Positions 5,467-63,463 of a DNA stretch of 64,000 nt are shown piece after piece. Origin of the DNA: Antedon mediterranea (lineage: Eukaryota; Echinodermata; Crinoidea; Comatulida; Antedonidae); contig NC_092676.1 of the NCBI RefSeq assembly GCF_964355755.1, positions 20,752,288 through 20,816,287 on the forward strand, in the 5' to 3' direction. Position numbers and translations under genes: made by a program. The notes under the pieces are model-generated. The model made no database searches and was not told where the DNA came from. It saw only the letters and a program-made list of their open reading frames with translations. Each line of letters starts with the position of its first letter. Position 1 is the stretch's first letter.

Positions 5467-8400
5467 ATGAATGACACCCACTGTAGCGATGAAGCACCGT
5501 CATCGGAGGAAATGATTCAAGGTTCGTTTCTTTTTTGTAAGCCTAATAGGCCTAGGCCGTATTTTACCTCAATTTATTTTCTTACAAGGGACAAGGGACA
5601 ATTCGAATAATCCATCATTTGAGATTGCGTTACGTCGTTGCGTTGCGTCTCGGTGACACCAAGCAACGCAAGGACGACGTAAACGCAGCGTAAATCAACC
5701 AACCACAAGTGATGGATTATTCGAACTGTCGCATGTTATTGGTCAACGTCGATAGTTGGAACCAAGGAGCATTATTCGACACTCGACATTGTCATAATAA
5801 TTTTACCCTTTATGCCGTTTGTATAGGCATATTCAAATTTGATAATACAGCATTATTATTATTGATTACAAATGAAAACAGATATTAAAATCGTAAACTA
5901 AATATTCAGTTTCAATGGTGACAAAGCATTTCAATTCATAACAGTTTAGTTTCAGCTGTTGCTGTGGAAATATGATATGTATGTTCTATGGAAAACAATG
6001 ATCTCACAAAATAAATAAATCGTAAATTGTAGGCCCTACATAAATTATATAAATCATCAATTCACTCTTAATTCGAAAAAAAAAAAGAAACCAATAAAAC
6101 AGAAGATCAGAAACTAAATTAAAAAAAAACGCCATTACGGATTAAGTAATTTGTATTATGTTGTAAAATCAAAATAAAATAATAATAGATACATTTATCC
6201 ATGATTAAAGATGAATTGTTCCCTAAAAAATATGATGAAAAATGAAGATTAATAAAATCAGATTTTGAATAGCTTTTTTGTAGTTTTAATAAATTTAATC
6301 ACTTCCGCAGAAAAACACGCAAAAAAAAAGACAAAACAAACGCTTAAATATATAGTATCTTTAAATTAAAAAAAATATAAACAAACTAACAAAGCAAAAT
6401 ACTTATTTGGAATGGTAAGAGACAAATAACATCTTGTGTATGTTTTTTAATGCTTTACAAAGCTACGTGTTAAAACAATGGAGTTGAGTTGCGGCTTGCT
6501 ACGGTGGCTATGTTATGGTTATGCTGTCATGTCAGGATTTTTTCTAATGACAATTTATAACTCCACTCTCAAAGACTTGTAATAATACTGTACTTGTTTA
6601 TGTAAAACATCTTGTGTATATTATATTGCCACCTTTAAAGTGAATTAATTCGCTTATGGTTATCCTTCGCAATTTGCCTAAATATATACATAAAACAAAC
6701 AAAACAAAATTGAACGACGCCTCCCCGTTCCTTTTAATGCTTGATTCCCACTAAAGACGCAACACAAGAATGTAACGCGACATAAGTGAGTTGACCAATC
6801 ACAAGCGATGGATTATTCGAACTGTCGCTTGTCATTGGTCAACACGTTTGCGTTGCCTTTACGTCCCTGCGTTGCGTCCTAGTGTGAACCAAGCCTGTGA
6901 ATGTACTTTTAATTATATACTATTTTGTTTACAGTAATCAGACGTCGACGTGACATTCTGATATATGTCATAATAGCTGGTATACTGTCGTGTCTTACTG
7001 TCTTGCTATTTGTAGAAATTTCATACAGAATTGCTAGAAATCAATTTTACAGTGCGTCACGTACTATTATTATTATCCTACTTGCACTGTATCCAGTAAG
7101 TCTTACATTTTTCGTAAATACTATCTTTTGTGGTTCACCACCACCTTTATTTCTAAACATTTTCTACCTTTTTTCATTATTTTCTGTTTTCCCTCAAAAT
7201 ATCATAATTTCTTAACTTTATTATCATACCATTAATAAACATTAGAATTCATTTAATATTTTTGTTTTCTGAATTACTAAACATTAATACAAAGTATTTA
7301 CTTAAATCGTAAATACTATTTGTAAAATCAAAGAATAGCGAGAATATTTTCCCATATTCTTACCTATATTATACGTTCTGAGTGCCCGATTAAAATAGTC
7401 CAGGTTGCATGGTGGGTGTGGTAGAAGGGAGTGCAATTATCTAATCTTTTTAAAATTATTTAAAGGCAGAAGTGGTCGTTTAGATCATAGAACAAAATAT
7501 ACTGATGTACATATCTATATATAAATTTACGTAAGGGCAAAATTCGGTAAATCTCGCCTTACTTCTAGAATTTTTACTCGATGGTATATAAAGTTGGTTC
7601 GTACTTTCGGTACTGATTTTAACCACCTGATGTAACCCTGTTTACTAATTAAATTGAGTTAAATAATTAGTTATTGACGATTAAAACGAATTTAGGTTCA
7701 ACGATTTGCCCCAAATAGGGGTGTTTTCCGACCGTGGTATACACTGTTTAATGCATGTCCATCGTGAAAAATACCCGCATACAATAATACGAGGATGCTT
7801 CGCATTTTCCTATCTCCTCCTACGATAACTGTTTTTAATGGCTGAAAACCGGTTGAACAGCTCGAGTACAGCATCATAATGTTGAAGACAGGCCGATTTT
7901 CTTTAAAAAAATACTATTTTGATACATTTAATATACGTTTATACAAATGTATTGATTTGCAATGAATGGAACATTCCAAATTATTTGGTTTAACCATACT
8001 TGCATACCTCAAATGGTTTAACACAAGTAGGTAAATTTATAGACCCTTGGAGAATAAACAGAAATAGTATTGTAATGCTATACAATACTGCAAATAGGTA
8101 TTAACCACTTTTGATCGCCATTTGAATCAAAATTGTGTTGGTACTGTTAAATATAATATAAACAAATATACTAATAAACTTTATCACTGTGAGTGTGGGT
8201 AGCCCCTACTTTTAGATTAAACACATAATAATATAATACTTTATTACTGTCAGTTGTTTCTCAACGTTTGTATTAATTAATAATTACAAAAATATAAACG
8301 TATTAGTGGTCTTTAAATGTACTTTACTATTTCAATCGACCATGAGACAGTGACAGTTTTAATAAAGTATTAAATCGGAAATGTTTTACTCTATTTAGTG

Positions 8401-11400
8401 GTATATTATTTATAGGCCTATAAAAAAATATTTCGTTACTGAGAGTGGATAATAAAGAAATATATTAAAGAACCATTTAATATAAAGAATATATTAAAAA
8501 ATTGTTCCTCTTTGTACCTATCCTCATCCCCAACGCTCAACTCTAATGTTAGATACAAAACCCTAAACTCTAATAGATACAAAATTGGGTTTGTTTAAAT
8601 GAGTCCAAATAACAAATTTGGACTCATTTGTGACAAGTTTCTAGGTGCTAATTTTGGTTGACTACATAAATCATTGTGTCTATTTATTTGTTTCTGTAAA
8701 AGACAATGTTTTATAGTCCTGCCGTACGTACATTTGAAATCGCCAGTTTTTTTACGCTGAAATTACTATGTATTCGAGAACCATCTGTGGGCACGAACTA
8801 GATGGTACGCGAGCGAAGCGAGCGTACCATCTAGTATAGAAAATAAAGTAAAACATGGAAAATAACCATTTTCAATTTGTAATTTGATCTCATTTTATCA
8901 TTGAAGGAGTTGGTGTGTTCGGAAGTGACTTTTAAAATAGATTATGTTACATGTTATTATTTTGTATTAAATTTAAATTTGGGTAGAAGCGTTTGGGTAG
9001 TAATGTTTTGTAGTAAATTTTGTTGAAATTATCTGGTTATATATTTTCCTACAGGTATCTAGCGTTACATCTTTCGTCGGGGTGATTATTCCAAGAGCTT
9101 CATTGGTTGCTAACCTAACAGCATCTTTGTACGTAACAAATCATTTTAAAGATCTATAAAAAAGTTTGGTGGTGATAAACGCAGCCCTGTCATGATTTCC
9201 TGAAAATAATAAAGGCACATTAGTACGGTACTATATGCACACGTTTCTCACGTTACGTATTAATGTTAACACTTTCTCTGACGTTTCAATTATAATTGCT
9301 AATTAAATGGAAATACAATACTGACAGTATCGTCTTTTAAGTGTTGTTACCTCTTGAACGCACCGCAAACAATTTGACTAATCACGTTGCGATGGATCGT
9401 CGCTTTGTGATTGGTCAACTCACTTGCGCTGCGCCTATGTCGTTGCATTGCGTCCAAATGGAAAACCAAGCTTCATGATTGATAGAATGTATTTAGGCCT
9501 CATAGATATACTATAGTAATATATCTTTGTAGGCCTAGTGTTATGGTAGTGAGATGATTTATAGCAAACCCACGCCTATTACATACAGCCACAATGGGCC
9601 GAAATCCAACCAAACTGAGCGCTTCCCTGGCTGTCGTGGCCTAGCATCCGATTCCGAGATAACAATGTTGTATTTTTGTCAGCATTGTATTGATTTATTG
9701 TATAATTATATAAAACGTTATAAAACATATGATTAATGTTTTGTATTCGTTAAAGAGAGAATTTAATTTACAGTCATTTAACGAGTTCATTGTTTCAACT
9801 CATTATTATATTATATTCTTCCCATTTAATTCATAGGCCTATACATTTAAACTGTTTTTGTTTATGCAGAATTTAAAATTGATTTAAATAATATTGAAAA
9901 GTCACAATAAACATTCTTTTTTTCAGTTACTATTGTATATGTCTTTACCTTTTTGTGGTTTTGGTAATTGACTACTATAACGGTGTAGACTCAATGATTA
10001 TTAAACTGAAGGATCGCCGAATTTCTCTAGCCAGGCCTCCGATTGCATGTTGTTGTGACTGCCTTCCAAAAATTAACATGACAAGGTAAACTGGAGTAGC
10101 ATTCCTAAGTTGTATTGTATTGTTTTGTATTATAGGCCTACAAAATATAATAAAGTGTACAAAATAGGTTTTCTTGGAAAGATCTCATCGAAACTTTACT
10201 CAAGCAGCCCAGACTACCTCGTGTAAAGTTATTATGTAGAAGCATTGTTTTTTTACATAAATATTATTACCTGCTATTAACATTATTTTAACAGAAGTAA
10301 TTTTCACAAACTTCGTCTTGGAATTCTTCAGAATGCAGTTGTCCGACCAATAAGTCTATTCATAGCTGCTACATTGTGGGCAGATGGTACGGCGAAAGCG
10401 GTATGTTGAAAATACATTAATTATCTCATTTCAAATATTTTTGAATATAATTGAAATTATAGAGCATGTAACCCGGATTCATCCAGGCATTCGCGCCATT
10501 CGCCAAGGCGAAGGTCAGATGGATGAATGTATTTGTTTTTTAATGATTTTGTATTCTCTTGAATTTTTCTAAAGAAATTAGGCCTACTATTGATTGCGTG
10601 TACCATGTTATTGACTACAAAATGGTGTCTCGAGAGATCATATCCTAACAATGTTCTTTTTATTATAAATATTATTGAAAGAAACAACACATTTCGATAT
10701 TTCGATGTAATAACACTGTGATTTCGATGTTTCTCTCGATTTCGATTGTAATATAAATAGTATTGGCTTTAAAATCTGGAGAAACAAAGTAAACTATTTT
10801 ATTGTTTCCTGATCATATATATACAATATAAATGTCTCTCTTAACCTTTCGTATACAATTTAAAATATCATGGTCTTATCCATATACTTCTTCAGTAAAA
10901 ACAAATCTTACTTGGGTCCTTTCCACTTTCTCTCTCCATTGGTTATAACATTGCACATAGGAATTTTGGAAGGCATAGTGTCAGCTGACTATATATTTTC
11001 AAATTATTGAAGCATTTCATATTTGATACTTTTACTTTGTTTTTTTTTGTATCACCCGTAAACTCATAGATTTTCTACTCCGTAGACCTTTTTTTTATTG
11101 TTTGTAGGCTTATACATGCATATTTTCTATACTTTGACATTTTATTTTTTAAATCATCATCACAAACATAATTATAGCTATCAGTTAATATGCCTTTTGG
11201 TTTTTGTGTTCCAACTTCCCGTTTGATGTTTTGTCTTACTTTTTTATTTATTGTAATGGATATTGAAGTCTTACAAGACTTATCTTCTCTGATCAATGGT
11301 TAGAGTATTACACATTTTACAAGCATGGAAGAAATTACCGCTCAGCATATCATTATTACTAGCTCAATAATTAAAGTAATTAGTTGGAAATACTAATTAC

Positions 11401-13221
11401 AAATTATTCTTTAAAGGTTGAAGCCTATCTGTACATGAATATTATTACTATGATTTCTTCAATATTTGCTGTGTATTCGTTAGCAGTAATTTACAATGCT
11501 TCGAAAAAGCCACTAAAAGAGTTTATGATCACACCAAAGTTTATTGCAATGAAACTAGTTATGCTGGTTGGAAATACCCAGCATTTTATATTAAGTATGC
11601 TGGCCTATATTGAGGTGATTCTTCCCTGTAAGCCGCCATTTAACACACAAACTCGAGCGAACAGTAAGTATAATATTTACTGTTTTGTCTATTATTTCAT
11701 AAACATGCTAGGTTAACATTGATGTCCATTCCGTGAGATCCCTACATACTCTACATAATTGATATGAAATGATGCCATTATTCCCAAATATGGACACCCC
11801 TTGAATATCACGGCGAGGGTAGTAGACTGGAGGGATTGCTATACAGGTAGGTATCTGACGAGCGTGCGCATAGACTACCGTAGTATATGCGCCAACAACA
11901 CCACAGTTTTTGGTGGTTTGTGTATTTTAATGTAAGCCTAAGTGTTCCCCGGTATCAAAATATTTTATTTCAACTTAAATATTTGCTTATTCGTTGGTTG
12001 TAATTGCCTTTTTGTATTAAAGATGTATTGTCCAGTTGGAAAAAATATGTATTTAAAAAAAAACATTATGCCATTTTAATGACAAATAGGCCTAATACTA
12101 TCCTATTCATTACATTCACTTTGACCGAAAATGTAAAGCAAAACATACTATTGTCTGTCAGACCGTGGTTTTTGCTAAATTTAACGATTTCATTTTGTCA
12201 GTATTAGGTAAGAGAATTATTTTTATTCGTTTTCTAAAGAAGTGTATAAATATGGCCTATTCAAATCTGTTATGTTTTTAGAGGACAATACATATATCTT
12301 TAAGTATTATGTGCTTCCTCGCGGACAGTAAATAGGCCTCTGTTTGCCTATTCATTCATCAGTTATTTTACTTTTATTCTGGAAACGGATGTTCATAGTT
12401 ACAAAATCAATTGCATAAATATAAGGTTAAATAAAAAAGGCACAAAAAAAAAAACCACCGGTATCAGATCATCTCAGGATCTCCATCATTTTGTTATGGA
12501 CCTTGGATGATTCAAATGATGATACCATAATACATTCTATCATTTTTTCTATAAAAGCTAAATACAATATATGCCCATGGGTATTGCACTAGTCTACATT
12601 ACTTTTATTCATGAGTTTCGTGTTTTGTTTTTTTCTGTATGTGTTAGGTTATCATATTTTCAAATACAAATTCAGACCTCATAAAGGTATATATTATAAA
12701 TATAGGTATACATTTCATTATTAATAAGTGTTTTCCGGCATCAAATTCTTTGTGTTGTGTTCCAGGATTTATAAAGCGCCAATGTTATGAAACCTCTAAG
12801 GGCTGAAGAAAACACCATACATTATAGACCTTCATAATTATACAAAGTGATAACATTTACACAAATCTCATTCCAAAAGAATTATTTTACTTTTGAAATA
12901 TCATTTTCAATTTCTTTTATAGCAATATTTTATCGAAAACCATCCACAGACGTTGACAACCCCAATAATTTGTATTTTCTAATTTATATTTCAGCGATTT
13001 ATAATATGCTTATCATTTATGAAACTTTTATTATGTTGCTACTCGGAAGGATATTCATATTCATTTGGCGAGAGAAAGAAAACAGCGATTCTGAAAGTAA
13101 TTTTGAATTATCAGAAAGTATTTCTATAGTTGAAAGAAACATGTGCTGCAAACAAAAGGTCGAATCTTCAACGAGTGATGAAAACGCATCTGTAACAAAT
13201 ATACCAAAGGACGTTGTATAG
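5467..13221 (+). CDS. SLC51A: Organic solute transporter subunit alpha (SLC51A), copy 1
   Basis: Seven exons join in frame into 342 codons plus stop: 5467-5521, 6935-7095, 9055-9128, 9927-10085, 10295-10400, 11417-11663 and 12995-13221, all with GT..AG introns. The human protein has 340 residues. Recognisable blocks are IIPRASL, then ASFYYCICLYLFVVLVIDYY, then a cysteine patch (ACCCDCLP) followed by TRSNFHKLRLGILQNA, then CKPPFNTQTRAN, then ETFIMLLLGR. All align in order with vertebrate SLC51A. Seven hydrophobic segments are apparent. With the beta subunit SLC51B the family moves steroids and bile salts across the plasma membrane. The first exon is the least certain; it is the only upstream ATG exon found whose phase fits. 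Copy 1 ends in TAG eight codons before the copy 2 stop. Confidence 0.85.
5598..5750. repeat. Palindromic CCAAT-containing MITE, diverged copy
   Basis: It contains GATGGATTATTCGAACTGTC and ACGCAACG-type words in both orientations. It is related to the better copy at 6739-6894 in the same SLC51A intron and is non-coding. Confidence 0.5.
6739..6894. repeat. Palindromic CCAAT-containing MITE
   Basis: Inverted ends start GCTTGATTCCCACTAAAGAC and finish with the complement of CTTGGTTCACACTAGGACGC. Each arm has GACCAATCACAAGC or ATTGGTCAA. The counterpart in duplication unit 2 is 55025-55165. Confidence 0.7.
7515..8855. other. 1.34-kb segment absent from duplication unit 2
   Basis: Flanking bases are contiguous in unit 2 near 55765. 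The segment lies in SLC51A intron 2. It contains GAGTCCAAAT...ATTTGGACTC (8601-8625) and a perfect hairpin (8797-8835). No coding potential is visible. It may be an inserted element or a deletion in unit 2. Confidence 0.6.
8797..8835. repeat. Perfect inverted repeat, 14-bp arms
   Basis: ACTAGATGGTACGC and its exact complement are separated by an 11-base GC-rich spacer (GAGCGAAGCGA). It contrasts sharply with the AT-rich surroundings. Confidence 0.8.
9356..9472. repeat. CCAAT-containing palindromic MITE, diverged
   Basis: It shares TGATTGGTCAACTCACTTGC and CAAGCTT end words with the 6739 copy. The counterpart in duplication unit 2 is 56285-56394. It lies in an SLC51A intron. Confidence 0.5.
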
Positions 13222-13431
13222 AACGAACTAAGTGTTAATTTATAGAGTTTGATCAATGAGCTTAATAGACGCGCATCTAGATGATTGTCAATAGGCTGTT
13301 AAAACAACATAGCATTGGTATTATTGTGCTCAATAAATTATTATTTTGACGACATTTACTACAGTATAAAAGAAAATCAATTAAATCGTTACGTTATTGT
13401 ATTTTTTTAATGTAAAGCAAAATGTAATACC

Positions 13432-13555
13432 GGTACACCACGTATTAGTTCTGGAAATAACTGTTGAGTTTTTCGATGTTTCGATCAATATCAATATTTA
13501 TTGAAACGAAGAGAAACTCAACAGTTCTTTTCAGAACTAATATACGTGGTGTACC
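13432..13555. repeat. Long imperfect hairpin downstream of SLC51A copy 1
   Basis: Arms begin GGTACACCACGTAT and AACTGTTGAGTTT and return in complement with few mismatches, about 40 bases each, around an AT-rich loop. It is conserved at 60348-60473, so it predates the duplication. Confidence 0.75.
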
Positions 13556-14021
13556 GCAAGCTTTATATCAACATTTGATTTCGCCATGCAAACCTTCAAA
13601 CAATATATTATGTAAAACCGTAACGAAAGTCTATATTAAATAAATAACCATGACATTACAAAACAATTCCACGGAGTATAACGTATGTACTTAAAGCATT
13701 GTTGACTTCCTTATCCAATTCAATTTTGGAGAAAATTCCTGAAATACTATATTCCTTATAGAAGTGTGATTGTATATAGTCAACATCGACAGATGTGTGT
13801 GACGAAAATGTAAAGAGATCCTTATCGGAAAGTTTAATAACGCCTGAGGTTGAACATTGAAAAACATATGCGATATTATTGTGTGTGAGGAAAATTAAAA
13901 GCCATCTTTATCGGAAAAAACACATAGATATTATTGCATATAATATAATTATGTTGTTATTTTTTGTGTTACACACCAAGGCCCACTTATAATTTTTTTT
14001 AAATGTTTACACCCCACCCAC

Positions 14022-14280
14022 TCAAACAATTCTACATCTATCTGAAACTAAACGAATGGTTCGACTTTTATTTAATGCTGTTAAAAGTTCGTATTCGGCT
14101 GGCATGTGGTGATTGGTGGTATAATTCAGTGTCCTGTTGTCGTAGTAATGATGTTTTAACGGTTTGCCACTCGGAGATTTATAAAATGGATAAAAACCAT
14201 ATAACGAAACATATTGACACATTGACCCAGCTGCTGTATACATGATTAACCCCAGAGATGGGTTTCTTATTTTCCAAAAT
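14022..14280 (-). CDS. Sialyltransferase gene 1, exon with motifs S, III and VS
   Basis: After the acceptor TTTCAG the frame reads [15 protein letters not shown] then [10 protein letters not shown] (motif S), HHYYDN (motif III) and HHMPAE (motif VS, with the H-x3-E signature). It ends CRIV and stop. The motif-S cysteine normally pairs with one in motif L. NRT, NYT and NKS sequons suit a lumenal protein. This copy has Q where genes 2 and 3 have R after SMC. Confidence 0.9.
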
Positions 14281-17200
14281 CTGAAAGAAAAGTCATTTGT
14301 TGTAGGCTATGAAGAAAATTATATTTATGCATGCATAATTTAATGTGCTGATGATGTCAATTTATTCCTGTTATCTTTAATTATGTTCATTTTCAGTATG
14401 CATTATTATTATTATTTTACTCGTTGAACATTCTTGTAAGAAACGTTAAATCCCCAGCTCAAATCCACTGTCTTACAAAAACGGAAGTTAATGAAAGAAT
14501 AGTAAGATTAAGATGATACTTACTTTGTAACTAGTGGTAGCATACCTCGGTACGAATATACAATTCTAACTGTTAAATTATTCTGTTTGATACCTGCTAC
14601 AAGATTATGTGCGTAGCTTATATTCTTTTCTGCGTTCAATTTAGAAATCCATATATATGTGTCATTAAGCTCTTTAAACGTGTCGTATGAAGTTTTGTAG
14701 CAACTATTTGAAGTGTTTGTTAGACATATACTGCTTTCGATACTGGCGGCCCCATTGAGCACCATCATATCTATTTTACCACCAACGTCTTGTTCAAAAC
14801 CAATAGTTTGTGCAAGATTTCCTCTAAAAACAAAGTCGTGTTCATCTATTTCACGTCCACAATTGCTGTTTAGTAGATTACCAGCACTGCCTACAACTGC
14901 ACAGGATCCTTGCAGAGGAATACTGTCGATACCTTCTGGTAATTTTGTCATTCGTTTGTTCTGTTTGAAGCCATCTTTGTAAATTAGTGTTAATAGAGAC
15001 GGTTTAAATCCAGCCTTCTGAAGTCGTTTTCTTTAATAGAATACAAACTTATAAATTCTGGGCTTATAATTGATTTAAAAAAACTCTAGACAGGCATGTT
15101 CGAATTCAGTATGAGGCATATGTATACTTTTTGTTCTATTTCGTGAGAACAAACCACTTTTATTTCATTCAAACCACCGTAAATTTTACATGTAAAATCA
15201 GTATTCAAAAAAGTAATATAGCATATGCATACTAAAAACTCTCTAATATTATTATTATGAAAAACAATTAAGGAAGAATTTTAGCATTTGCCCTTTATAT
15301 TTTTCAAATTTCCCTAAATTTAGACTTCGAATATGCCATTTTACAGTTTAATAAAGTCATTCCCACTTAAAATAGATGAAATAAACGGTTAAGTTTAACC
15401 AAAACCATAGTGTGACAGACAATTTGAATATTATTCGTTTAGTAATCATAATAATAATATTCTCTCTGAGCCAATATGCTGCTTTCATTGTATTTGTTTG
15501 TGTCATTATTATTAATGAATCCGTATCTTGTAAAAAGTACACCAAGATCATTGTATTATATTATACAACTTATATAGAAATTCAACAGTTTGTATTTATA
15601 TACAATAAATGTTTCGTCACCAAATCTGATTTTAATTGGTGTAGAATTCTTTCAAGTCTATCTGAAAGAGTAAAGCTCTGTTTGGTATTTGCTATTTAAG
15701 CAGAGACCATGCATACATTTGTGGTGGCAGAAATTAGATGATCAAAAGAAGGCTGCAATAGGCGGGGTAGAAAAAGAAAATAGACATATATAGTCAAGTT
15801 CTATTTGATATGATAACTAGGAAGGTATAATGCCACCGTGTATTATGATCAGTGAAATGATTACCGTATCCAGTAAAAACGAAAGCAAAACTTACCTCAT
15901 ATCTAATGCTTTGCTTTCTTTAATGTGATTAGTCAATACTTTCCTACAAACAAAATCATAGGTTAAAATTATAATGGATACACATAAACTAAATACTCTT
16001 TTGATAAGAAGTAATAACTAAGATTATGGTACTTATCGGAAAGTTTCGTTTTGGCAGCTCCCTACCAATTAATTTCATCCGGCAGTGTGCTAATTTTAAA
16101 TTTTTTAAACCACGCTAAAGACTTCTTTTCGAAGTGTCTTAATTTACGGTTATTATACATTACATCATACATCTTAATGTTGACATTTCCTACTTTTTCC
16201 AGCTTGCTTTGTTCGCTTATATAAATGCGACTCTTGTTTATATATATAAAAGTATCTCTTCGGAGATCCCGCCTGCGATTTTTTTTTTCGTAATTAAGTT
16301 GGGAACCCCCTTATGAAACGTCACAAAATAAACATGAATAATTCATCAGTTAAATTTTCTTGTTCCGTGTGCACCCAAGCGTATAGCAACAAGAAGTGAT
16401 TATACACAAGTGCGGTACGATTCTAGGCCTATCTCCGCTGTGGTTGCCGCGTGGGATTTCATAAAAGAATAGCGGCGTTTTGTCAGGGGCGGATCCAGGA
16501 TTATTTTTGCGGGGGTGGGGGGGGGGGGGGGGGTGGCACACGCGATCGTAGAGAGAAAATGGGGAAAGCCCAGAAAAAAATGCATTTTATGGTGTTCGAG
16601 ATCACTAACGCACTCTGATTCGATCATCTGTAAAGGGTCTTGCACAACTCTTCACAGTTCCAAACTTCAGGGTGGCGAAAGTATTTTTCCCAAAGACTTT
16701 CTCTGAAAATCCGAGAGAGGGCGTCATATTTCGTCCCATTGTGTAGGGGGAGCATTATGCATCTCTCTGCGCTCGCCTTTTGAATGAACATTTTAATATG
16801 CTGCGCTTTCCGAATGAATTGCCGATTCTTACAAAGGGAGGATATCGCCTTGTTGTAGGCCTAACTACAGTACGTATACGCCTTTTTCACGAAACGGAAG
16901 ACATCTTCGATCGATGACAAACAATGCCGTGCAACTAAGCGTAACCAACAGAAATAACATAACGTTTTCAGGGGATTTCAGGACACCATGTTAATTAAAA
17001 TAATATCGTAACTCTTCAACGGAGGATCGTATGAGAAAAAAAATTACTGTAAAATGTTCTTAAAAGATTTTCGTATATCACTGTGTGATTAAAAAAAAAA
17101 TGTGAACATTTTTTTTAACTGCTTAAAATCTATCGAAAAAAACACCACAGTGTATAAGCATAGGCAGGCCCGTAGCCAGGTTTTTTTTGGGGGGTTCGGG

Positions 17201-20200
17201 CGAACCTCCCCTTTTGCGCGAACCCCCTTTTACCAGCGAACCCCCCTTGAAAAACAAAGGCCCCACTTCCAAAATCGTGCAATTAATTATCAATTATAGC
17301 AGATTTTTTGGTCATTTTACTTCTATTGACTATGTTTAAATCGATCGAATTCGAATATACAGATTGTCCGATGTCAAAGTCACTGCTGAGCGTGAGATCG
17401 AGAGATTGTTGAGAGATGATGGTTATAAATATGACAAAAAAAATGGACTGACCAATCGCGTGCTTCGGCCGGGCTTTTCGGAACGCACAAGATCACGTTC
17501 AGTTCAGTTCAATCTTTTTGTGGATTTTTATTTTTTTCCTGGAAATATTTTTCATTAAACCAAAGAATTTCACTGTGTAAACTTGAATAAAAATGGTTAA
17601 ATTGGTACGTGTACATTTATATTTCGGTGTATAAGACGCACTTTTGACACGCAAATTTGACCTCTAAATGTTACCCTAATTAATTTAATTACCTACTAAT
17701 ACTTAAATTAAACCACAGTGTGGTAACAAGTTTATTGAATTTTTAGTTAAGGTAAATTGTCATCCTCGACTGTATTAATTAATATTACAGTACGCATTAG
17801 ATATTCTACCCAGGCCTAGTAATATAATACTCTCTGAACTCGGTGGTTTATTTTTATTACATCTCTATGTCAACAATCACATAATTTTATAATCATGTAG
17901 GCAATAGTTCGTATGTCAAGCAATATCTAAAAGAGTGTGTTGTTATTGTGTTAAGTAGCTTCCCCTAATCTCATAGTGTATATGGCCAACAGTGCTGGCC
18001 ACCAGGCAAGGAGCACATGGTTAGTGCTCTCCTCTCCTCATATTGCTGTAATGCATGCATGGAAATAGGAAAGATTTTCATATAGGCCTACCCAACATGA
18101 TATTCCTGGTTCATTATCAGCCCAAAACACTGAACATCATTTGGATTGATTTTATAATGGTCATACACACAATAAGAAGGTATATATTTAAATAATATGA
18201 AATTAAAGTTACTTAAATAGATATAGGCTGTAGGCTGGGGGCCAGTGCATCGTAACTGAAACAATATGGGGATTTCCCTTTTCATTGAACGTTCAGTTGA
18301 AGTAGAGACTGATTACGATGTAATAAAGATAAGATAAGATAAGATAAGATAACTTTTATTGATCCTCAAAAAGGAAATTCATTGCTCGTCATAATAACAA
18401 AGAAAACACTATAAAAACAAATATAGCATAAAACCATTCAAGGCAATCAAATAAAATTATATCATTTGATTCTAATAAATATGTCTCAAATATCGTTGTT
18501 TTATTATTAAAATACCATTGTTTTGATTGTAAAATGTTTAAATTTCGGCCTAGAAATAAGTGCGTCTTATGCATCGACTACATAAAAAATACTAATATTT
18601 CAGTCTCCGTTATGGGTGCGTCTTATACACTGGTGCGACTTGTACACCGAAATATACGGTACTATTTGTTTTTTATGTTTATAGGATAAGAAATTATTTA
18701 AGGGCCTAATATAATATACTTTTTTGCAACAATAAAGCTGTATTTCATGATCAGTACTACTAACTTCCATAATACTGTACTATATAATTTCTCTGCATAA
18801 TTCAGATTTTAGTAGGTAAAAAATGTCTCTGTAAGCTTATTAAAACAACCGAAATTGCTCTGAGAGCCAAAGCTTCCAGGGGCCTTCGCCCCCTGGACCC
18901 CGACCGGGGGCCCTTGGCGGCCCCCAGCCTACAGTTGCTCGCTGCGCTCGCAAAATACTTGGTGTCAAGAAAACCCCCCTCTGATGCATTCTGGCTACGG
19001 GCCTGTTGTAGACAAACAAGTATTTAGTCTATATTGCTTTGTATAATAATACAATAGACCTACAAATAATTTTTAAAGCAGTTGCTGATGTCTATTCACA
19101 GTCCACTCCCCCAATACAGGACACAAGACATTTCTGGAACAGCAGACATCAAACTGTCCAGTATTATCATAGTTGAATAATAATATTAGTAATATTTTTT
19201 TCTTGGTGTTTTAGAAGGTCAATCCTGGACATTCAGAAATGTATCGATGAACTGGAAACCAAGCAGCAGATAATGCTCGCAAAATACTTGGTGTCAAGAA
19301 AACCCCCCTCTGATGCATTCTGGCTACGGGCCTGATAGGCTGAAAACGCTATGTTATTTCTGTTGGTTAAGCTTTGTTGCACGGCATTGTTTGTCATCGA
19401 TCGAAGATGTCTTCCGTTTCGTGAAAAAAGGCGTATTGGTCCCTGGGTGTAGCATGACTCATATATCAACGCCCGCGGCGTTTATGTTAGTACACAAATA
19501 TACGAATTAATAATGTTCAATACTCATTACTTTATTAAAGGCACTATGTGCGTGCGATATTCTATGTAGTATGACTTGGATACTCTCGTTTTATTTAAAT
19601 TTTTGTGGCTAAACTCATCGTTTTTAACATAAATTCGGACGATTTTTGCTATAAAAGTTGGGTTTTCATAATTAATTAACAATTACCTACTCTCGTTTGG
19701 TAGATATTGCAACATTCTGAGTCTCGTTTTTTTTTCCGTTTGGTGTTTTGTAGGACCGCGCTCGCCAAAGACAACAGTCGTTCACGTGTGGGAAGGGCCG
19801 TATTTCATCGCCTTTGTTGAGGATAAAAATTATCCTAGGCGATCGGGCGCTGCACGACCCTCCCCATCATGTTATTGAAGGCGCCATGAGAATTAATTTT
19901 ATTAGCGATGTAAGTAGGCTTTACAAAAAACAAAACTTGTAGACCTGGAGACAACATTTTATTTTTTTAACATGTTTGAGTGAGATGTTCGGCGATATAT
20001 GCACACGTGTGTACTCACGACGTCGATGTAAACAAACAGCCAACTTACTACTTCCGTCTGAGTGTATTGCATTTTGGGTAATGATGACGTTTTGCTCGAC
20101 GACAACCCATAGATTTAACCGGTTATTTCGGAGCACAAATTGAGCAGAAACGCGGTCTTGTTATTGTTATCTATTTTTAATCTATTTAAAAATAACCGGT

Positions 20201-29760: not shown

Positions 29761-29774
29761 TTAGATAGCTTTAG

Positions 29775-33455: not shown

Positions 33456-33596
33456 AAAAACACGGTAAAATACAGTACATTATAGGCCTAGTTAATGTTG
33501 GCAAATAAATATTTTGTAAAACTTGTTAAAACTTGAAATGAAACTACAGTAAGTTACAGATATGCTTACAGTACATAATAATAGTTATGTTAGTTG

Positions 33597-36328: not shown

Positions 36329-36587
36329 TCAAGCAATTCTACATCTATCTGAAACTAAACGAATGGTTCGATTTTTATTTAATGATGTTAAAAGTTCGTA
36401 TTCGGCTGGCATGTGGTGATTAGTGGTATAATTCAGTGTCCTGTTGTCGTAGTAATGATGTTTTAACGGTTGGCCACTCGGTGATTTATAAAATGGATAA
36501 AAACCATATAACGAAACATATCGACACATTGACCCAGCTGCTGTATACATGATTAACCCAAGCGATGGGTTTCTTATTTTCCAAAAT
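36329..36587 (-). CDS. Sialyltransferase gene 2, motifs S/III/VS exon
   Basis: The frame starts [18 protein letters not shown], with [14 protein letters not shown] (motif S), YYDN and HMPAE, and ends CRIA with a stop. It differs from gene 3 at a handful of residues, mostly near the C terminus. Confidence 0.9.
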
Positions 36588-45245: not shown

Positions 45246-45399
45246 TTAAAGGCGAGATTAATCCATTTGTTATTGTATTATTCGAAAGCTCCCACTGGTG
45301 GTACGAGGCCTAAAGTTGCATTTATCTTTAATCATATAGTATACACCTAAGTTAATTACTGTACCAAAAACATATCCACTTAAAACATGGGTTTTCAGG

Positions 45400-47360: not shown

Positions 47361-47369
47361 GCAGATAGT

Positions 47370-49751: not shown

Positions 49752-49754
49752 TAA

Positions 49755-50339: not shown

Positions 50340-53300
50340 ATTTTCCAAGATGGCTACCAAAATCCAAGATGGCCGCCAGAAAAAAGGAAATGCCATATAT
50401 CTGGCTGTAAAACTCGTAAATCAACAAATGGGGTGTAAATTTAAGGGTTTCTGGGGTCAATGAAACAGATGCTGGTTATGCCATATTGCTCAGACCACCT
50501 ATTTCCAAGATGGCGGCCAAATTTCAAAATGGCCGCTAAAAAAGGGAAATGAACAAATGAGGTATTAATTCAGGGGTTTCTTGGGTCACCAAAACAGATG
50601 CTGGTCAAACTATTTTGCTCAGGTCACCCATTTCCAAAATGGCGGCCAAATTTCAAAATGGCTTCCAAAAAAACCCCAAAATTTTGTGTAGGCATATGTG
50701 GGTTAAAAATCAGAAATTAACCAAAACAATGTATGAAAAAGGTTTACTTGGCTCGACTTGTTAATGGTTATTGGACTTATATAATAGCTACATTACAGTT
50801 TACAGTTAATTACAGTTGATTTACCCTATTTGGATGAACATGTGCACCGGCAAAGAGATGTGCAAGGCAGATTTGCCTTGCTGCATTTGCAGACTGTACA
50901 GGCCTTTTTGCAGCCACATTTCACAAAGTCTCTGCAAGCTTTAGATGCCTCTGGAATGGTAGACCAGACAGGTTCCCATGAGTTCCCAACTTTCACTCAT
51001 GCATAGTCGGTTGGACACGGATTTGTTTGTTGAGATAACATGCATGTTGTCCAGATGCCAGCTTGGTATACGGCCCTCCTAGTGTGCTGGAGTAGTGCAT
51101 TCTGAGTAGGTGGTATCTTGTCAACAGCTTGCCGTTTCTGGCTGAACAGTTCCATCCGAGCACTGTTAACATTCATGGCGTTACTTGTTTTGTCATAAAC
51201 TACGACAACTAGTCTCTCAGAATGTAAGTGAAGATGCTCAAACGGATGTGCGGCAAGATGAAGAAAGGAGGCATCCGTATCTTCGTCATAAGCATTCCAT
51301 GCCTGCCAAAACGATTTCTTCCCTTTACCTCTAAACGCTGAGGTAGTATCACATCCTGACAGGGAGTGGAACATTGGCAGGGAACGTGATTTACGTTCAC
51401 CGAGATGTGCACAAATGGCGTTGATACTGTAATGAGTGTAGTTCTTTCCAGTTCCAAATGCTATCCAGAGATCAAGATCAGCATTTATCTGAGAGAGGTC
51501 ATGAAACACACCGATAAGAACAACGACAACATCTGTATCCACAGTTTGCACCTGGATGGATTTTGCTCCATTTTCCAACGCGTGTTTCACGTGAACCACA
51601 ATCCTAGTGTCTGCTTCCTCTTGATTACAGCTGGACATTTTGAACTGCGTTCCAACATATGTAACATGCTCTCCAGCTGTGATATATACCGAACACTCAG
51701 GAGGGATGCTGCAATCCGCAACTTTTGATGAAAGGAATTCAAAAAGTTCTTTCTTGTTGATTGGATCACGGAGGAAGTCATTCCAGTTGCCCGGCAGCTT
51801 GGTATCACCTGATACTTGTCTAAGCACACCTTTGCCTCGTTTCTCTCTGGTTCCCTCCTTAAGGCTATCTGGTCGGTATTCGTCCCACACAACATCCACT
51901 CGCTTTGTGTCACGTAGCTGACGTTTCAGATGGGGTATAAACACGTTGTCAGCATATTCTTGGAATGTTGAGACATTTATTATAGGTAATGCATGTACTG
52001 TCACCGCACCATCCAGAACTTTGCAGTCATATAATACAGGTACCTCTGTGTGGTTTGATTCGATACATTGTAACAGATGACATTTGGTAACAGACAGATT
52101 AAGCTTTCCAAACTCAGACAGGGATGGAGGATACAACTGTACTTCGTGTGCAAAGAATTAACTGATGTCACCATCTCTATTTTTTAAGGAAATGTATAAC
52201 TGGCCGAAGAGTGCCACATTGTTCTCAAGCACCTTTACTTTCTTGCAATCCTTTGATTTGACTTTGAGCTTTGTTGAGAGCAAGGGTGGTGAATTCTTTG
52301 AGATTGTATCATATATGGAACGACTACGATCCACGAGCACGGTCTTCACATGCTCTTGATACTTCTTTGTGCCTGTATCTTCTAGTGTACGGATTGTATC
52401 CACTACTGCCTCATTCGCGCAGTTACGACTATCAAGAGTTACTAACTCAGGGAAGTCATCCAGGAAGGGATTTCCCATCTTGCGTATTGTGTTAGATAGA
52501 CTATCAACCTGTTGCCGGGAGGTTTTCTGTGCTGCAAGTCCCTGTTCATGGTGTTCAAAGTTAGCTGGGTTTTCCGGATCATTGTCATGAATATATTCAT
52601 TCTCATACTGTCTCAGTCTGGCAAGCTCGGGTCCAGCAGTCATCCAGCGTCTGAAGGCAACTGGATTTTCTGTAAGTCCTACTACACCACCGAATGCTTT
52701 CACCACTTTATTCTCTTGCTCATGCGCTTGGTCTATTGGAATCGCAGAGTATCTGTGTAACGACTTTGCGATTGTCCAGTGATTCCGAGTTTCAAACTCA
52801 TATTTGATATCTTGTGGCAATGCCTTCATGTCTCTAATGTGTACAGGCAGCCACCGAGAATAGTTCACATGATCTAACGCAAAGAACAATGGCACGAGTG
52901 CCTCTAATACAGAAACATACAATAGGAAGTCTCTCTCCCGATGGGCTCTAACAAATATGCGAATCAGAATCTCATAGTGTGCGATCATGTTCCAGAACTT
53001 GAACGTGGGGGATTTCTTAGATAATTGTTCAAACTCTCATCAACATTAGATCTCTGGTTAAATGCTTCATTCAGTAGCCGCTGAGAAACAAGAACAGTGA
53101 CTTGATGGGCATGTCGAGTTCTGGTAATGTGTGATACTTTCAGGAATGAATCGACTGTTCCAGATGAAGCAACGTCAGATTCAGTGAGAGCCGTTGTCCA
53201 AACTGACTCATCTAATAAATCGCCAACAGTGTTCCATAGCGCCTTCTCAATGTGCAGTCCGCCCATACGTAGACTTTCTCACCATAGAGATCTGACCATT

Positions 53301-54250: not shown

Positions 54251-54439
54251 AAAGCAAAAAAAAGCAAAATCCTTATTACATGGTAAGAGACAAATAACAT
54301 CTTGTGTATGTTTTTTAATGCTTTGTAAAGCTACGTGTTGTTAAAATAATGGAGTGGAGTTGTGGCTTGGTACGGTAGCTATCATGTCAATATTTTGTCT
54401 AATGACGATTTACAACTCCACTCTCAAAGACAGTTATTG

Positions 54440-54910: not shown

Positions 54911-55024
54911 ATTGCCACCTTTAAAGTGAATTAATTCGCTTATGGTTATCCTTGGCAATTTGCCTAAATATATACACAAAACAAACAAAACAAATTTGAA
55001 CGACGCCTTCCCGTTCCGTTTAAT

Positions 55025-55165
55025 GCTTGATTCTCACTAAAGACGCAACACAAGGATGTAACGCGACATAAGTGAGTTGACCAATCACAAGCGATGGATT
55101 ATTCGAACTGTCGCTTGTCATTGGTCAACACGTTTGCGTTGCCTTTACGTTAGTGTGAACCAAGC
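55025..55165. repeat. CCAAT palindromic MITE, unit 2 copy
   Basis: It is the counterpart of 6739-6894, with a short deletion in the right arm (ACGTTAGTGTGAACC). Confidence 0.65.
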
Positions 55166-55210
55166 TTAAGTGTGAATGTAACTTTTAATCATATACTATT
55201 TTGTTTACAG

Positions 55211-58200
55211 TAATCAGACGTCGACGTGCCATTCTGATATATGTCATAATAGCTTGTATACTGTCGTGTCTTACTATCTTGCTATTCGTAGAGATTTCAT
55301 ACAGAATTGCTAGAAATCAATTTTACAGTGCGTCACGCACTATTATTATTATTCTACTTGCATTGTATCCAGTAAGTTTTACATTTTTCGTAAATACTAT
55401 TTTTGTTTATCTTTGTTTTTTTTAAATTTTGTATCTATTATGTTGTGTTTATTGTTTTATGTTTTTTATGTAAAAAGGTCCTATAGTATCATACCATTAG
55501 TAAACATTGGCATTCATTTAGTATTTTTGTTTTCTGAATTACTAAACATTAATACAAAGTATTTACTTCTTAAATCGTAAATACTATTTATAAAATCAAG
55601 GAATAGCGAGAATATTTGCCCATATTCTTACATATCTTATACGTTCTGACTGCCCGAATAAAATAGTCCAGCTTGCATGGTGGGTGTGGTAGAAGGAAGT
55701 GCAATCTAATATTTTTCAAATTATTTAAAAGCGGATGTTGTGGTTTAGATCATAGAACAAAATATGATGTACATAAAAAAAAATGAAAAATAACTATACC
55801 ATTTTCAATTTGTAATTTGATCTCATTTCATCATTGAAGGAGTGTGTTCGGGAGTGACCAAGCTTTTAAAATAGATTATTACTTTTTATTATTTTTATTA
55901 AATTTAATGGTGGGTAGAAGCGTTTGGGTAATGATGTTTTGTAGTAAATTTTGTTACAGTTATCTGGTTATATATTTTCCTACAGGTATCTAGCGTTACA
56001 TCTTTCGTCGGGGTGATTATACCAAGAGCTTCATTGGTTGCTAACCTAACAGCATCTTTGTACGTAAAAAAATTCATTTTCAAGATCTATAAACTTAATG
56101 TTTGGTGGTGGTAAACGCAGCCCTGTCATGATTTCCTGAAAATAATAAAGGCACACTAGTACTATATGCACACGTTTCTCACGTTACATATTAATGTTAA
56201 CACTTTCTCTGACGTTTCAATTAGAATTGCGAATTAAATGGAAATACAATACTGACAGTATCGTCTTTAAGTTTTGTTACCACAATCGCAAACAATTTGA
56301 CCAATCACGACGCGATGGATCGTCGCTTCGTGATTGGTCAACTCACTTGCACTGCGCCGATGTCGTTGCGTTGCGTCCAAGTGGAAACCGAGCTTTATGA
56401 TTGATAGAATGTGTAGGCCTCATAGATATACTATAGTAATATATCTTTGGTAGGCACAGTGTTATGGTAATGAGATGAGTTATAGCACACCCACGCCTAT
56501 TATATACAGACACAATGGGCCGAAATCCAACCAAACTGAGCGCTTCCCTGGTTGTCGTGGCCTAGCATCCGATTCCGAGATAAACAATGTTGTATTTTTG
56601 TCAGCATTGTATTGATTTATTGTATAATTATATAAAACGTTATAAAACATATGATTAATGTTTTGTATTCGTTAAAGAGAGAATTTAATTTACAGTCATT
56701 TAACGAGTTCATTGTTTCAACTCATTATTATATTATATTCTTCCCATTTAATTCATAGGCCTATACATTTAAACTGTTTTTGTTTATGCAGAATTTAAAA
56801 TTGATTTAAATAATATTGAAAAGTCACAATAAACATTCTTTTTTTCAGTTACTATTGTATATGTCTTTACCTTTTTGTGGTTTTGGTAATTGACTACTAT
56901 AACGGTGTAGACTCAATGATTATTAAACTGAAGGATCGCCGAATTTCACTAGCCAGGCCTCCGATTGCATGTTGTTGTGACTGCCTTCCAAAAATTAACA
57001 TGACAAGGTAAACTGGAGTAGCATTCCTAAGTTGTATTGTATTGTTTTGTATTATAGGTCTACAAAATATAATAAAGTGTACAAAATAGGTTTTCTTGGA
57101 AAGATCTCATCGAAACTTTACTAAAGCAGCCCAGATTACCTCGTGTAAAGTTATTATGTAGAAGCATTGTTTTTTTACATAAATATTATTACCTGCTATT
57201 AACATTATTTTAACAGAAGTAATTTTCACAAACTTCGTCTTGGAATTCTTCAGAATGCAGTTGTCCGACCAATAAGTCTATTCATAGCTGCTACATTGTG
57301 GGCAGATGGTACGGCGAAAGCGGTATGTTGAAAATACATTAATTATCTCATTTCAAATATTTTTGAATATAATTGAAATTATAGAGCATGTAACCCGGAT
57401 TCATCCAGGCATTCGCGCCATTCGCCAAGGCGAAGGTCAGATGGATGAATGTATTTGTTTTTTAATGATTTTGTATTCTCTTGAATTTTTCTAAAGAAAT
57501 TAGGCCTACTATTGATTGCGTGTACCATGTTATTGACTACAAAATGGTGTCTCGAGAGATCATATCCTAACAATGTTCTTTTTATTATAAATATTATTGA
57601 AAGAAACAACACATTTCGATATTTCGATGTAATAACACTGTGATTTCGATGTTTCTCTCGATTTCGATTGTAATATAAATAGTATTGGCTTTAAAATCTG
57701 GAGAAACAAAGTAAACTATTTTATTGTTTCCTGATCATATATATACAATATAAATGTCTCTCTTAACCTTTCGTATACAATTTAAAATATCATGGTCTTA
57801 TCCATATACTTCTTCAGTAAAAACAAATCTTACTTGGGTCCTTTCCACTTTCTCTCTCCATTGGTTATAACATTGCACATAGGAATTTTGGAAGGCATAG
57901 TGTCAGCTGACTATATATTTTCAAATTATTGAAGCATTTCATATTTGATACTTTTACTTTGTTTTTTTTGTATCACCCGTAAACTCATAGATTTTCTACT
58001 CCGTAGACCTTTTTTTTTTATTGTTTGTAGGCTTATACATGCATATTTTCTATACTTTGACATTTTATTTTTTAAATCATCATCACAAACATAATTATAG
58101 CTATCAGTTAATATGCCTTTTGGTTTTTGTGTTCCAACTTCCCGTTTGATGTTTTGTCTTACTTTTTTATTTATTGTAATGGATATTGAAGTCTTACAAG

Positions 58201-60160
58201 ACTTATCTTCTCTGATCAATGGTTAGAGTATTACACATTTTACAAGCATGGAAGAAATTACCGCTCAGCATATCATTATTACTAGCTCAATAATTAAAGT
58301 AATTAGTTGGAAATACTAATTACAAATTATTCTTTAAAGGTTGAAGCCTATCTGTACATGAATATTATTACTATGATTTCTTCAATATTTGCTGTGTATT
58401 CGTTAGCAGTAATTTACAATGCTTCGAAAAAGCCACTAAAAGAGTTTATGATCACACCAAAGTTTATTGCAATGAAACTAGTTATGCTGGTTGGAAATAC
58501 CCAGCATTTTATATTAAGTATGCTGGCCTATATTGAGGTGATTCTTCCCTGTAAGCCGCCATTTAACACACAAACTCGAGCGAACAGTAAGTATAATATT
58601 TGCTGTTTTGTCTATTATTTCATAAACATGATAGGTTAACATTTATGTCCATTCCGTGAGATCCCTACATACTCTACATGATTGATATGAAATGATGCCA
58701 TTATTCCCAAATATGGACACCCCTTGAATATCACGGCGAGGGTAGTAGACTGGAGGGATTGCTATACAGGTAGGTATCTGACGCGCGTGCGCATAGACTA
58801 CCGTAGTATATGCACCAACAACACCACAGTTTTTGGTTTGTGTATTTTAATGTAAGCCTAAGTGTTCCCCGGTATCAAATTATTTTATTTCAACTTAAAT
58901 ATTTGCTTATTCGTTGGTTGTAATTGCCTTTTTGTATTACAGATGTATTGTCCAGTTGGAAAAAATATGTATTTAAAAAAAAACATTATGCCATTTTAAT
59001 GACAAATAGGCCTAATACTATCCTATTCATTACATTCACTTTGACCGAAAATGTAAAGCAAAACATACTATTGTCTGTCAGACCGTGGTTTTTGCTAAAT
59101 TTAACGATTTCATTTTGTCAGTATTAGGTGAGATAATTATTTTTATTCGTTTTGTAAAGAAGTGTATAAATATGGCCTATTCAAATCTGTTATGTTTTTA
59201 GAGGACAATACATATATCTTTAAGTATTATGTGCTGCCTCGCGGACAGTAAATAGGCCTCTGTTTGCCTATTCATTCATCAGTTATTTTACTTTTATTCC
59301 GGAAACGGATGTTCATACAAAATCAATTGCATAAATATAAGGTTAAATAAAAAAGGCACAAAAAAAACCACTGGTATCAGATCATCTCAGGATCTCCATC
59401 ATTTTGTTATGGAGCCTGGATGATTCAAATGATGATACCATAATACTTTCTATCACTTTTTCTATAAAAGCTAAATACAATATATGCCCATGGGTATTGC
59501 ACTAGTCTATATTACTTTTATTCATGAGTTTCGTGTTTTGTTTTTTTCTGTATGTGTTAGGTCGTTAGGTTATCATATTTTCAAATACAAATTCAGACCT
59601 CATAAAGGTATATATTATAAATATAGGTATACATTTCATTATTAATAAGTGTTTTCCGGCATCAAATTCTTTGTGTTGTGTTCCAGGATTTATAAAGCGC
59701 CAATGTTATGAAACCTCTAAGAGCTGAAGAAAACACCCTACACAAGACCTTCATATACAAAGTGATAACATTTACACAAATCTCATTCCAAAAGAATTAT
59801 TTTACTTTTGAAATATCATTTTCAATTTCTTTTATAGCAATATTTTATCGAAAACCATCCACAAACGTTGACAACCCCAATAATTTGTATTTTCTAATTT
59901 ATATTTCAGCGATTTATAATATGCTTATCATTTATGAAACTTTTATTATGTTGCTACTCGGAAGGATATTCATATTCATTTGGCGAGAGAAAGAAAACAG
60001 CGATTCTGAAAGTAGTTTTGAATTATCAGAAAGTATTTCTATAGTTGAGAGAAACATGTGCTGCAAACAAAAGGTCGAATCTTCAACGAGTGATGAAAAC
60101 GCATCTGTAACAAATATACCAAAGGACGTTGTAGAGAACGAACTAAGTGTTAATTTATAG
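55211..60160 (+). CDS. SLC51A: Organic solute transporter subunit alpha (SLC51A), copy 2
   Basis: Exons: 55211-55371, 55986-56059, 56849-57007, 57217-57322, 58340-58586 and 59910-60160. Each has the same length and phase as copy 1 exons 2-7, except the last, which is 24 nt longer. All splice sites and the frame are intact. Protein changes are few (for example RRRAIL for RRRDIL, IIACIL for IIAGIL). The C-terminal cytoplasmic tail is Ser/Glu-rich (SDSESSFELSESIS). No exon matching copy 1's ATG exon (5467-5521) was found in 5 kb upstream, where unit 2 similarity starts only at 54255. The gene may be 5'-truncated or use another first exon. Confidence 0.8.
56285..56394. repeat. CCAAT palindromic MITE, diverged, unit 2 copy
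   Basis: It is the counterpart of 9356-9472, in the same SLC51A intron. Confidence 0.5.
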
Positions 60161-60347
60161 AGTTTGATCAATGAGCTTAATAGACGCGCATCTAGATGAT
60201 TGTCAATAGGCTGTTAAAAGCGGCATAGAATTGGTATTATTGTGTTCAATAAATTATTATTTTGACACCATTGACTACAGTACAAAAGAAAATCTATTAA
60301 ATCGTTACGTTATTGTATTTTTTTAATGTAAAGCAAAATGTAATACC

Positions 60348-60473
60348 GGTACACCACGTATATTAATTCTGGAAATAACTGTTGAATTTCTCGATGTTTC
60401 GATCAATATCAGTATTCATTGAAACGACGAGAAACTCAACAGTTCTTTTCAGAACTAATATACGTGGTGTACC
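60348..60473. repeat. Long imperfect hairpin downstream of SLC51A copy 2
   Basis: It is the counterpart of 13432-13555. Both arms are kept, with compensating and non-compensating changes scattered between copies. Confidence 0.7.
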
Positions 60474-60939
60474 GCAAACTTTATATCAACATTTGATTTC
60501 GCCATGCAAACCTTCAAACAATATATTATGTAAAACCGTAATGAAAGTCTATATTAAATAAATAACCATGACATTACAAAACAATTCCACGGAGCATAAC
60601 GTATGTACTTAAAGCATTGTTGACTTCCTTATCCAATTCAATTTTGGAGAAAATTCCTGAAATACTATATTCCTTATAGAAGTGTGATTGTATAGTCAAC
60701 ATCGACGGATGTGTGTGACGAAAATGTAAAGAGATCCTTATCGGAGAGTTTAATAACGCCTGAGGTTGAACATTGAAAAACATATGTGATATTATTGTGT
60801 GTGAGGAAAATTAAAAGCCATCCTTATCGGAAAAAACACATAGATATTATTGCATATAATATAATTATGTTGTTATTTTTTGTGTTACACACCAAGGCCC
60901 ACTTATAATTTTTTTTTTTAATGTTTACACCCCACCCAC

Positions 60940-62920
60940 TCAAATAATTCTACATCTATCTGAAACTAAACGAATGGTTCGACTTTTATTTAATGTTGTT
61001 AAAAGTTCGTATTCGGCTGGCATGTGGTGATTGGTGGTATAATTCAGTGTCCTGTTGTCGTAGTAATGATGTTTTAACGGTTTGCCACTCGGTGATTTAT
61101 AAAATGGATAAAAACCATATAATGAAACATATCGACACATTGACCCAGCTGCTGTATACATGATTAACCCCAGAGATGGGTTTCTTATTTTCCAAAATCT
61201 GAAAGAAAACTCATTTGTTGTAGGCTATGAAGAAAATTATATTTATGCATGCATAATTTAATGTGCTGATGTCAATTTATTCCTGTTATCTTTAATTATG
61301 TTCATTTTCAGTATGCATTATTATTATTATTTTACTCGTTGAACATTCTTGTAAGAAACGTTAAATCCCCAGCTCAAATCCACTGTCTTACAAAAACGGA
61401 AGTTAATGAAAGAATAGTAAGATTAAGATGATACTTACTTTGTAACTAGTGGTAGCATACCTCGGTACGAATATACAATTCTAACTGTTAAATTATTCTG
61501 TTTGATACCTGCTACTAGATTATGTGCGTAGCTTATATTCTTTTCTGCGTTCAATTTAGAAATCCATATATATGTGTCATTAAGCTCTTTAAACGTTTCG
61601 TATGAAGTTTTGTAGCAACTATTTGAAGTGTTTGTTAGACATATACTGCTTTCGATACTGGCGGCCTCATTGAGCACCATCATATCTATTTTACCACCAA
61701 CGTCTTGTTCAAAACCAATAGTTTGTGCAAGATTTCCTCTAAAAACAAAGTCGTGTTCATCTATTTCACGTCCACAACTGCTGTTTAGTAGATTACCAGC
61801 ACTGCCTACAACTGCACAGGATCCTCGCAGAGGAATACTGTCGATACCTTCTGGTAATTTTGTCATTCGTTTTTTCTGTTTGAAGCCATCTTTGTAAATT
61901 AGTGTTAATAGAGACGGTTTGAATCCAGCCTTCTGAAGTCGTTTTCTTTAATAGAATACAAACTTATAAATTCTGGGCTTATAATTGATTAAAAGAAACT
62001 CTAGACAGGCATGTTCGAATTCAGTATGAGGCATATGCATACTTTTTGTTCTATTTCGTGAGAACAAACCACTTTTATTTCATTCAAACCACCGTCAATT
62101 TTATATGTAAAATCAGTATTCAAAAAAGTAATATAGCATGCATACTAAAAACTCTCTAATATTATTATGAAAAACAATTAAGGAAGAATTTTAGCATTTG
62201 CTCTTTTTATTTTTCAAATTTCCCTAAATTTAGACTTTGAATATGCCATTTTACAGTTTAATAAAGTCATTCACTTTAGAAAAAAAACGAAGAAAATAAT
62301 ACAGTACCCACTTATAAAAAGATGAAATAAACGGTTAAGTTTAACCAAAACCATAGTGTGACAAACAATTTGAATATTATTAGTTTAGTAATCATAATAA
62401 CTAATATTCTCTCTGAGCCAATATACTGCTTTCATTGTATTTGTTTGTGTCATTATTATTAATGAATCCGTATCTTGTAAAAAGTACACCAAGATCATTG
62501 TATTATATTATACAACTTATATAGAAATTCAACAGTTTGTATTATATACAATAAACGTTTCGTCACCAAATCTGATTTTAATTGGTGTAGAATTCTTTCA
62601 AGTCTATCTGTTTCTTGTATAGCTTACAATGAAAATGTAAAGTTCTGTTTGGTACTTGCTATCTAAGCAGACCATGCATACATGTGAATTTGTGATGGCA
62701 GACATTATATTATTATTAAAAGAAGGCTGCAATAAGCAGGGTAAAAAAAACCAGAAATAGTCATATATAGCCAAGTTCTATTTGATATGATAACTAGGAA
62801 GGTATAATGCCACCATGTATTATGATCAGTGAAATGATTACCGTATCCAATAAAAACGAAAGCAAAACTTACCTCATATCTAATGCTTTGCTTCCTTTAA
62901 TGTGATTAGTCAATACTTTC
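60940..62920 (-). CDS. Alpha-2,8-sialyltransferase (ST8Sia-like, GT29), gene 3, 3' exons
   Basis: Exons: 62920-62873 (48 nt, [16 protein letters not shown]), 61945-61439 (motif [21 protein letters not shown]) and 61198-60940 (motifs S, III and VS, stop). Phases and lengths equal those of genes 1 and 2. The K-G change (KESK to KGSK) in the stem exon is unique here. The membrane-anchor and first stem exons are not in the remaining 1.1 kb, so they would lie beyond base 64000. It is otherwise intact. Confidence 0.82.
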
Positions 62921-63463
62921 CTACAAACAAAATCATATGTTAAAATTATAATGGATACACGTAAACTAAATACTCTTTTGATAAGAAGTAATAGCTAACA
63001 TTACGGTACTTATCGGAAAGTTTTCGTTTTGGCAGCTCCCTACCAATTAATTTCATCCGGCAGTGTGCTAATTTTAAATTTTTTAAACCACGCTGAAGAC
63101 TTCTTTTCGAAGTGTCTTTATTTACGGTTATTATACATTACATCATACATCTTAATGTTGACATTTCCTACTTTTTCCAGCTTGCTTTGTTCGCTTATAT
63201 AAATAGCGACTCTTGTTTATATATATAAAAGTATCTCTTCGGAGATCTCGCCCGCCTGCGATTTTTTTTTCGTACATAAGTTGGGGACCCCCTTATGAAA
63301 CGTCACAAAATAAACATGAATAATTCATCAGTTAAATTTTCTTGTTCCGTGTGCACCCAAGCGTATAGCAACAAGAAGTGATTACACAAGTGCGGTACGA
63401 TTCTAGGCCTATCTCCGCTGTGGTTGCCGCGTGGGATTTCATAAAAGAATAGCGGCGTTTTGT

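Follow-up and report, generated by a model that had tools for sequence, protein, structure and literature searches.

Tandem duplications of ST8Sia-related genes have been published for amphioxus and sea urchin (Harduin-Lepers et al. 2008, PMC2564942), and echinoderms are known to contain multiple uncharacterised sialyltransferases (PMC6994554). The locus from Antedon mediterranea described here resembles these ST8Sia EX expansions, since ST8Sia-related GT29 genes are again tandemly multiplied in an invertebrate deuterostome; in view of the published duplications the array adds one more example to a known type. It differs from them in that an unrelated gene, SLC51A, is located inside the duplicated unit; the likeness is drawn at the level of the ST8Sia family. 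In the literature searched there was no paper on SLC51A in echinoderms. The locus also shares its direct repeats and an apparently chimeric gene at the junction with duplications by non-allelic homologous recombination, from which it does not differ in kind; misaligned recombination of this type is an ordinary route by which gene clusters grow.

The window is a stretch of 64,000 nucleotides (C7:20752288-20816287 in a 354 Mb assembly), extended for the analysis by 10 kb on its left and 80 kb on its right; positions above 64000 are window coordinates continued past the window end. Self-comparison of the window revealed two blocks, 8865-15362 and 55798-62272, with 97.0% identity over 6.5 kb. Weaker similarity extends the blocks in the 5' direction (6625-7513 and 54911-55775, 88%), and a further match upstream links 6388-6576 to 54258-54431 at 81%. 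Both blocks contain a convergent gene pair, SLC51A on the plus strand and a sialyltransferase on the minus strand, with 776 bp between them. The introns are common to both, as is an intergenic hairpin, found at 13431-13556 between SLC51A copy A and sialyltransferase A1 and at 60347-60474 in the second block; an Rfam scan of the window gave no match. The initial annotation had proposed that SLC51A and a sialyltransferase were copied together with introns, intergenic sequence and hairpin, and the 97.0% identity over 6.5 kb bears this out. It was also right about the convergent pair. However, the tail-to-tail block is not a duplication unit of its own but forms the left end of a longer unit that is repeated in tandem. 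The original observation is real, yet part of a larger array. About 5 kb before the window there is an exon which, judged by eye only, resembles a CDK8/19 kinase over 41 residues.

Over about 126 kb the array contains nine sialyltransferase genes (GT29, ST8Sia-like) together with relics. A gene has three coding exons, which carry the signal anchor, motif L, and motifs S, III and VS, respectively. Six of the genes (A1, A3, B1, B3, C1 and C3) have complete open three-exon frames of 295 aa. Sialyltransferase A1 (14022-28631, minus strand) is encoded by exons 28631-28510 (signal anchor), 15030-14524 (motif L) and 14280-14022 (motifs S, III and VS), and A3 (36329-43689, minus strand) by exons 43689-43568, 37342-36836 and 36587-36329. 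For B1 (60940-61945, minus strand), exons 2 and 3 are at 61945-61439 and 61198-60940, while exon 1 (68055-67934) lies outside the window. All three exons are recognisable in sialyltransferase D at 117.8 kb. The first exon was not seen in E (131.8 kb), which has lost the motif-L cysteine, or in F. A relic piece of a sialyltransferase occurs at 97.2-97.8 kb. The relic that had been noted within the window is present at 22298-22757 (A2, minus strand), but it is a truncated extra copy of the middle, motif-L exon inside the first intron of A1; it shares 97% identity with the region of the B1 exon. The earlier count of two SLC51A genes, three sialyltransferases and a relic applied to the window; exon 1 of the block-2 sialyltransferase and a third SLC51A are both beyond it.

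The names given to the two genes, SLC51A and ST8Sia-like, were correct, as judged from matches to PF03619 and OSTalpha for the former and to PF00777 and ST8SiaIII for the latter. The spliced 295-aa sialyltransferase matched PF00777 with 149 bits against a cut-off of 23 (E 2e-43). Its nearest solved relative is ST8SiaIII (105 bits, E 4e-29); among the PDB sequences, the only ones used for this comparison, ST3Gal1 scored 47 bits and the ST3Gal, ST6Gal and ST6GalNAc types in general 47 bits or less. Motif L reads CAVVGSAG...DVG, and the next motif consists of a 13-residue stretch followed by ...CRYVSLYGF. Motifs III and VS are present with the catalytic His and Glu, HHYYDN and HHMPAE aligning to HYYD and HQLPAE of ST8SiaIII. 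Exon 1 encodes the N-terminal signal anchor, with a stretch of 21 residues, and is kept in seven copies with the correct splice phase. This arrangement points to a type II topology. From their family the products are probably Golgi type II enzymes, which would add sialic acid to glycolipids or glycoproteins. Constraint was not seen between A1 and B1 alone (4 synonymous and 9 nonsynonymous changes, p 0.5). It is found in wider pairs (for example A3-C3, p 0.008, and A1-C3, p 0.002), which share history and are not independent.

SLC51A copy A (6935-13245, plus strand) has six coding exons at 6935-7095, 9055-9128, 9927-10085, 10295-10400, 11417-11663 and 12995-13245. Those of copy B (55211-60160, plus strand; 331 aa) are at 55211-55371, 55986-56059, 56849-57007, 57217-57322, 58340-58586 and 59910-60160. 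GT-AG is present at every internal exon border of A and B. A scan upstream of both copies for a first (N-terminal) exon, sought as an open frame in the matching splice phase, gave no conserved candidate. The spliced B protein matches nearly the full length of PF03619 (137 bits, E 9e-40) and human OSTalpha in the PDB with E 1.4e-27 over 265 residues; all of its PDB matches are OSTalpha chains. Like OSTalpha it has a Cys-rich loop before a conserved TR and is colinear with the human protein; the difference is that the gene is multi-copy here. Its family suggests that the product is an OSTalpha-type membrane transporter. A profile search of the genome for OSTbeta (PF15048) gave no match, but the control gave none anywhere either. 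The claim that both genes stay open in both blocks is nearly right; the exception is a TAG in SLC51A copy A, 8 codons ahead of the stop of copy B. The synonymous versus nonsynonymous comparison, which had been proposed as a check, showed fewer nonsynonymous changes between A and B: apart from the late stop there are 4 at 764 nonsynonymous sites and 8 at 226 synonymous sites (Fisher p 0.0014). The third SLC51A, copy C (86099-90142, beyond the window), is missing two stretches that B has, one of 401 bp (57260-57660) and one of 451 bp (58103-58553). Exon 5 thereby loses its end and exon 6 is almost entirely missing, and copy C is hence a relic.

The latest tandem duplication has its first copy (interval I) at 9670-56600 and its second (interval I') from 56601 to about 87500, past the window end. 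The two intervals form a colinear chain of nine segments with 28,403 aligned bases and 1.33% mismatch. The duplication unit is 31-47 kb and thus larger than the 6.5-kb block; it contains SLC51A, ST1, ST3 and then more sequence with a minisatellite. The different lengths of the units (46.9 and 30.9 kb) are largely due to insertions in A; at the places where A carries a LINE-like element and an inverted-repeat transposon, unit B has clean empty sites. The LINE-like element (30156-33459) has an A-rich tail, and its reverse-transcriptase frames are broken. The transposon-like insert (37958-42364; 4.4 kb) has inverted ends of about 820 bp that are 98% alike, with TATAAT on both sides. Long minus-strand frames at 50997-53036 and 39128-41104 have no Pfam match and probably encode transposon proteins. 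The minisatellite (47360-49752, units of about 50 bp) recurs at 79.7-80.6 kb; at 47360-49752 each of the three minus frames is open for more than 800 codons, so that the openness is no gene signal.

Unit C is older, and its sialyltransferase regions diverge by about 4-8%. The trees (C1,(A1,B1)) and (C3,(A3,B3)) have one shape, which indicates that ST1 and ST3 were copied together. The tree from exons plus introns supported the A-B pairings with bootstrap values of 83-91% and the split between ST1 and ST3 with 100%. These trees bear on the possibility that many small independent duplications and gene conversion, with no single event of 31-47 kb, produced the array. The patchy identity, local copies such as A2 and a region in which A, B and C are equidistant (58601-60400) would agree with such a history. 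It is nevertheless improbable, since the nine segments chained across the whole interval are colinear and have few mismatches, and the ST1 and ST3 trees are identical in shape.

Next to the unit boundary we examined the site patterns in a three-way alignment of copies A, B and C. Up to 56552, 128 sites grouped B with C, 4 grouped A with C and 2 grouped A with B. From 56561 to 58600 the corresponding numbers were 1, 3 and 11, with the first A-type cluster starting at 57140, and beyond 60400 they were 17, 15 and 65. From 58601 to 60400, A, B and C are roughly equidistant (21, 18 and 18 sites). These patterns indicate that SLC51A B has a C-type front and an A-type rear, joined at or near exon 4. 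The putative recombination junction is around this exon at 56553-57139, the C-type sites ending at 56552 and the A-type sites beginning at 57140. A chimeric SLC51A of this type is predicted if two older SLC51A copies had undergone unequal crossing-over. The equidistance at 58601-60400 implies that gene conversion must also have acted. A stretch of more than 1 kb without any A-B difference (10.4-11.6 kb) needs conversion or chance and fits conversion; it weakens the exon-versus-intron comparison.

The junction is also informative on whether the two units are haplotypes of one locus that were joined in series by the assembly. Allelic divergence in marine invertebrates covers values such as 1.33%, and identity by itself can therefore not decide this question; the presence or absence of transposons is likewise possible between two such alleles. 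However, the joined sequence of 154 kb is free of N, and hence no scaffold join is visible. Reads would also have to switch from C-type to A-type within about 570 bp of shared sequence (from 56553), which is far below the overlaps of long reads, and the older C unit with its 4-8% difference is present in any case. A haplotig join is thus unlikely.

Directly visible in the DNA are the way in which the copies relate in sequence, the mosaic and the open frames; from these we infer the order of events and the mechanism of crossing-over, just as function was inferred from family. The array quite probably grew by tandem segmental duplication, with unequal crossing-over for unit B and SLC51A as a passenger. 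The ancestral locus would have been an ST8Sia-like array with one SLC51A at its edge, enlarged by tandem segmental duplication. An older duplication would have generated two units of SLC51A, ST1 and ST3, represented today by the start of A and by C. Unequal crossing-over of the two SLC51A copies, near exon 4, would later have doubled everything between them; the same exchange would have created the middle unit B together with the chimeric SLC51A. Gene conversion probably blurred the junction signal afterwards. SLC51A would have been carried along throughout.

The initial annotation had raised joint selection as a speculation of its own, in which SLC51A and the sialyltransferase are held together as a working pair by shared regulation or a shared pathway. 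The two were indeed copied together, and both are largely open in A and B. But the SLC51A of copy C is without most of exons 5 and 6, with C1 and C3 intact beside it, and none of the sialyltransferases A3, B3, C3, D, E and F is accompanied by its own SLC51A. Elsewhere in this genome, SLC51A-like genes occur at four positions (C10:3.46, C10:7.16, C7:6.23 and C10:16.5 Mb), each megabases from any sialyltransferase match, and the adjacency was found nowhere else. With the third SLC51A broken beside intact sialyltransferases and an adjacency that does not recur, the speculation is unsupported and a working pair is very unlikely. Equally far-fetched would be a module under common regulation that, for instance, makes and exports sialylated or steroid-linked compounds, and whose duplication was favoured because it raised the dose of both genes. 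The decay of SLC51A in C and the distant positions of the other SLC51A-like genes make SLC51A look like a passenger, and hitchhiking looks like the simplest reading of the pair.

The full-length motif-L exons inside the array are 73-100% identical, and their identity to those at other loci in the genome is at most 54% and usually below 45%. The sialyltransferase array is its own clade within this genome, and to this extent the earlier suggestion of a lineage-specific expansion holds. Genome-wide, the motif-L exon has 81 matches, which corresponds to roughly 80 sialyltransferase loci. Other clusters are located on C9 (6.93-7.03 Mb), C3 (35.5-35.7 Mb), C1 (25.4-25.5 Mb), C5 and C11. Mitochondrial COX1, in which the echinoderm genetic code could have been examined, is not in the assembly. 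As an indirect sign of an echinoderm, a tektin of this genome scores 291 bits to a chain of PDB entry 8snb, a sea urchin sperm structure, and 156 bits to mammalian tektin-4. The present case resolves how such an array grows: an older pair of units was followed by what was probably one unequal exchange inside a passenger gene, and this exchange left the transporter gene chimeric but open. The roughly 80 loci would be useful for the study of the unusual sialoglycans of echinoderms.
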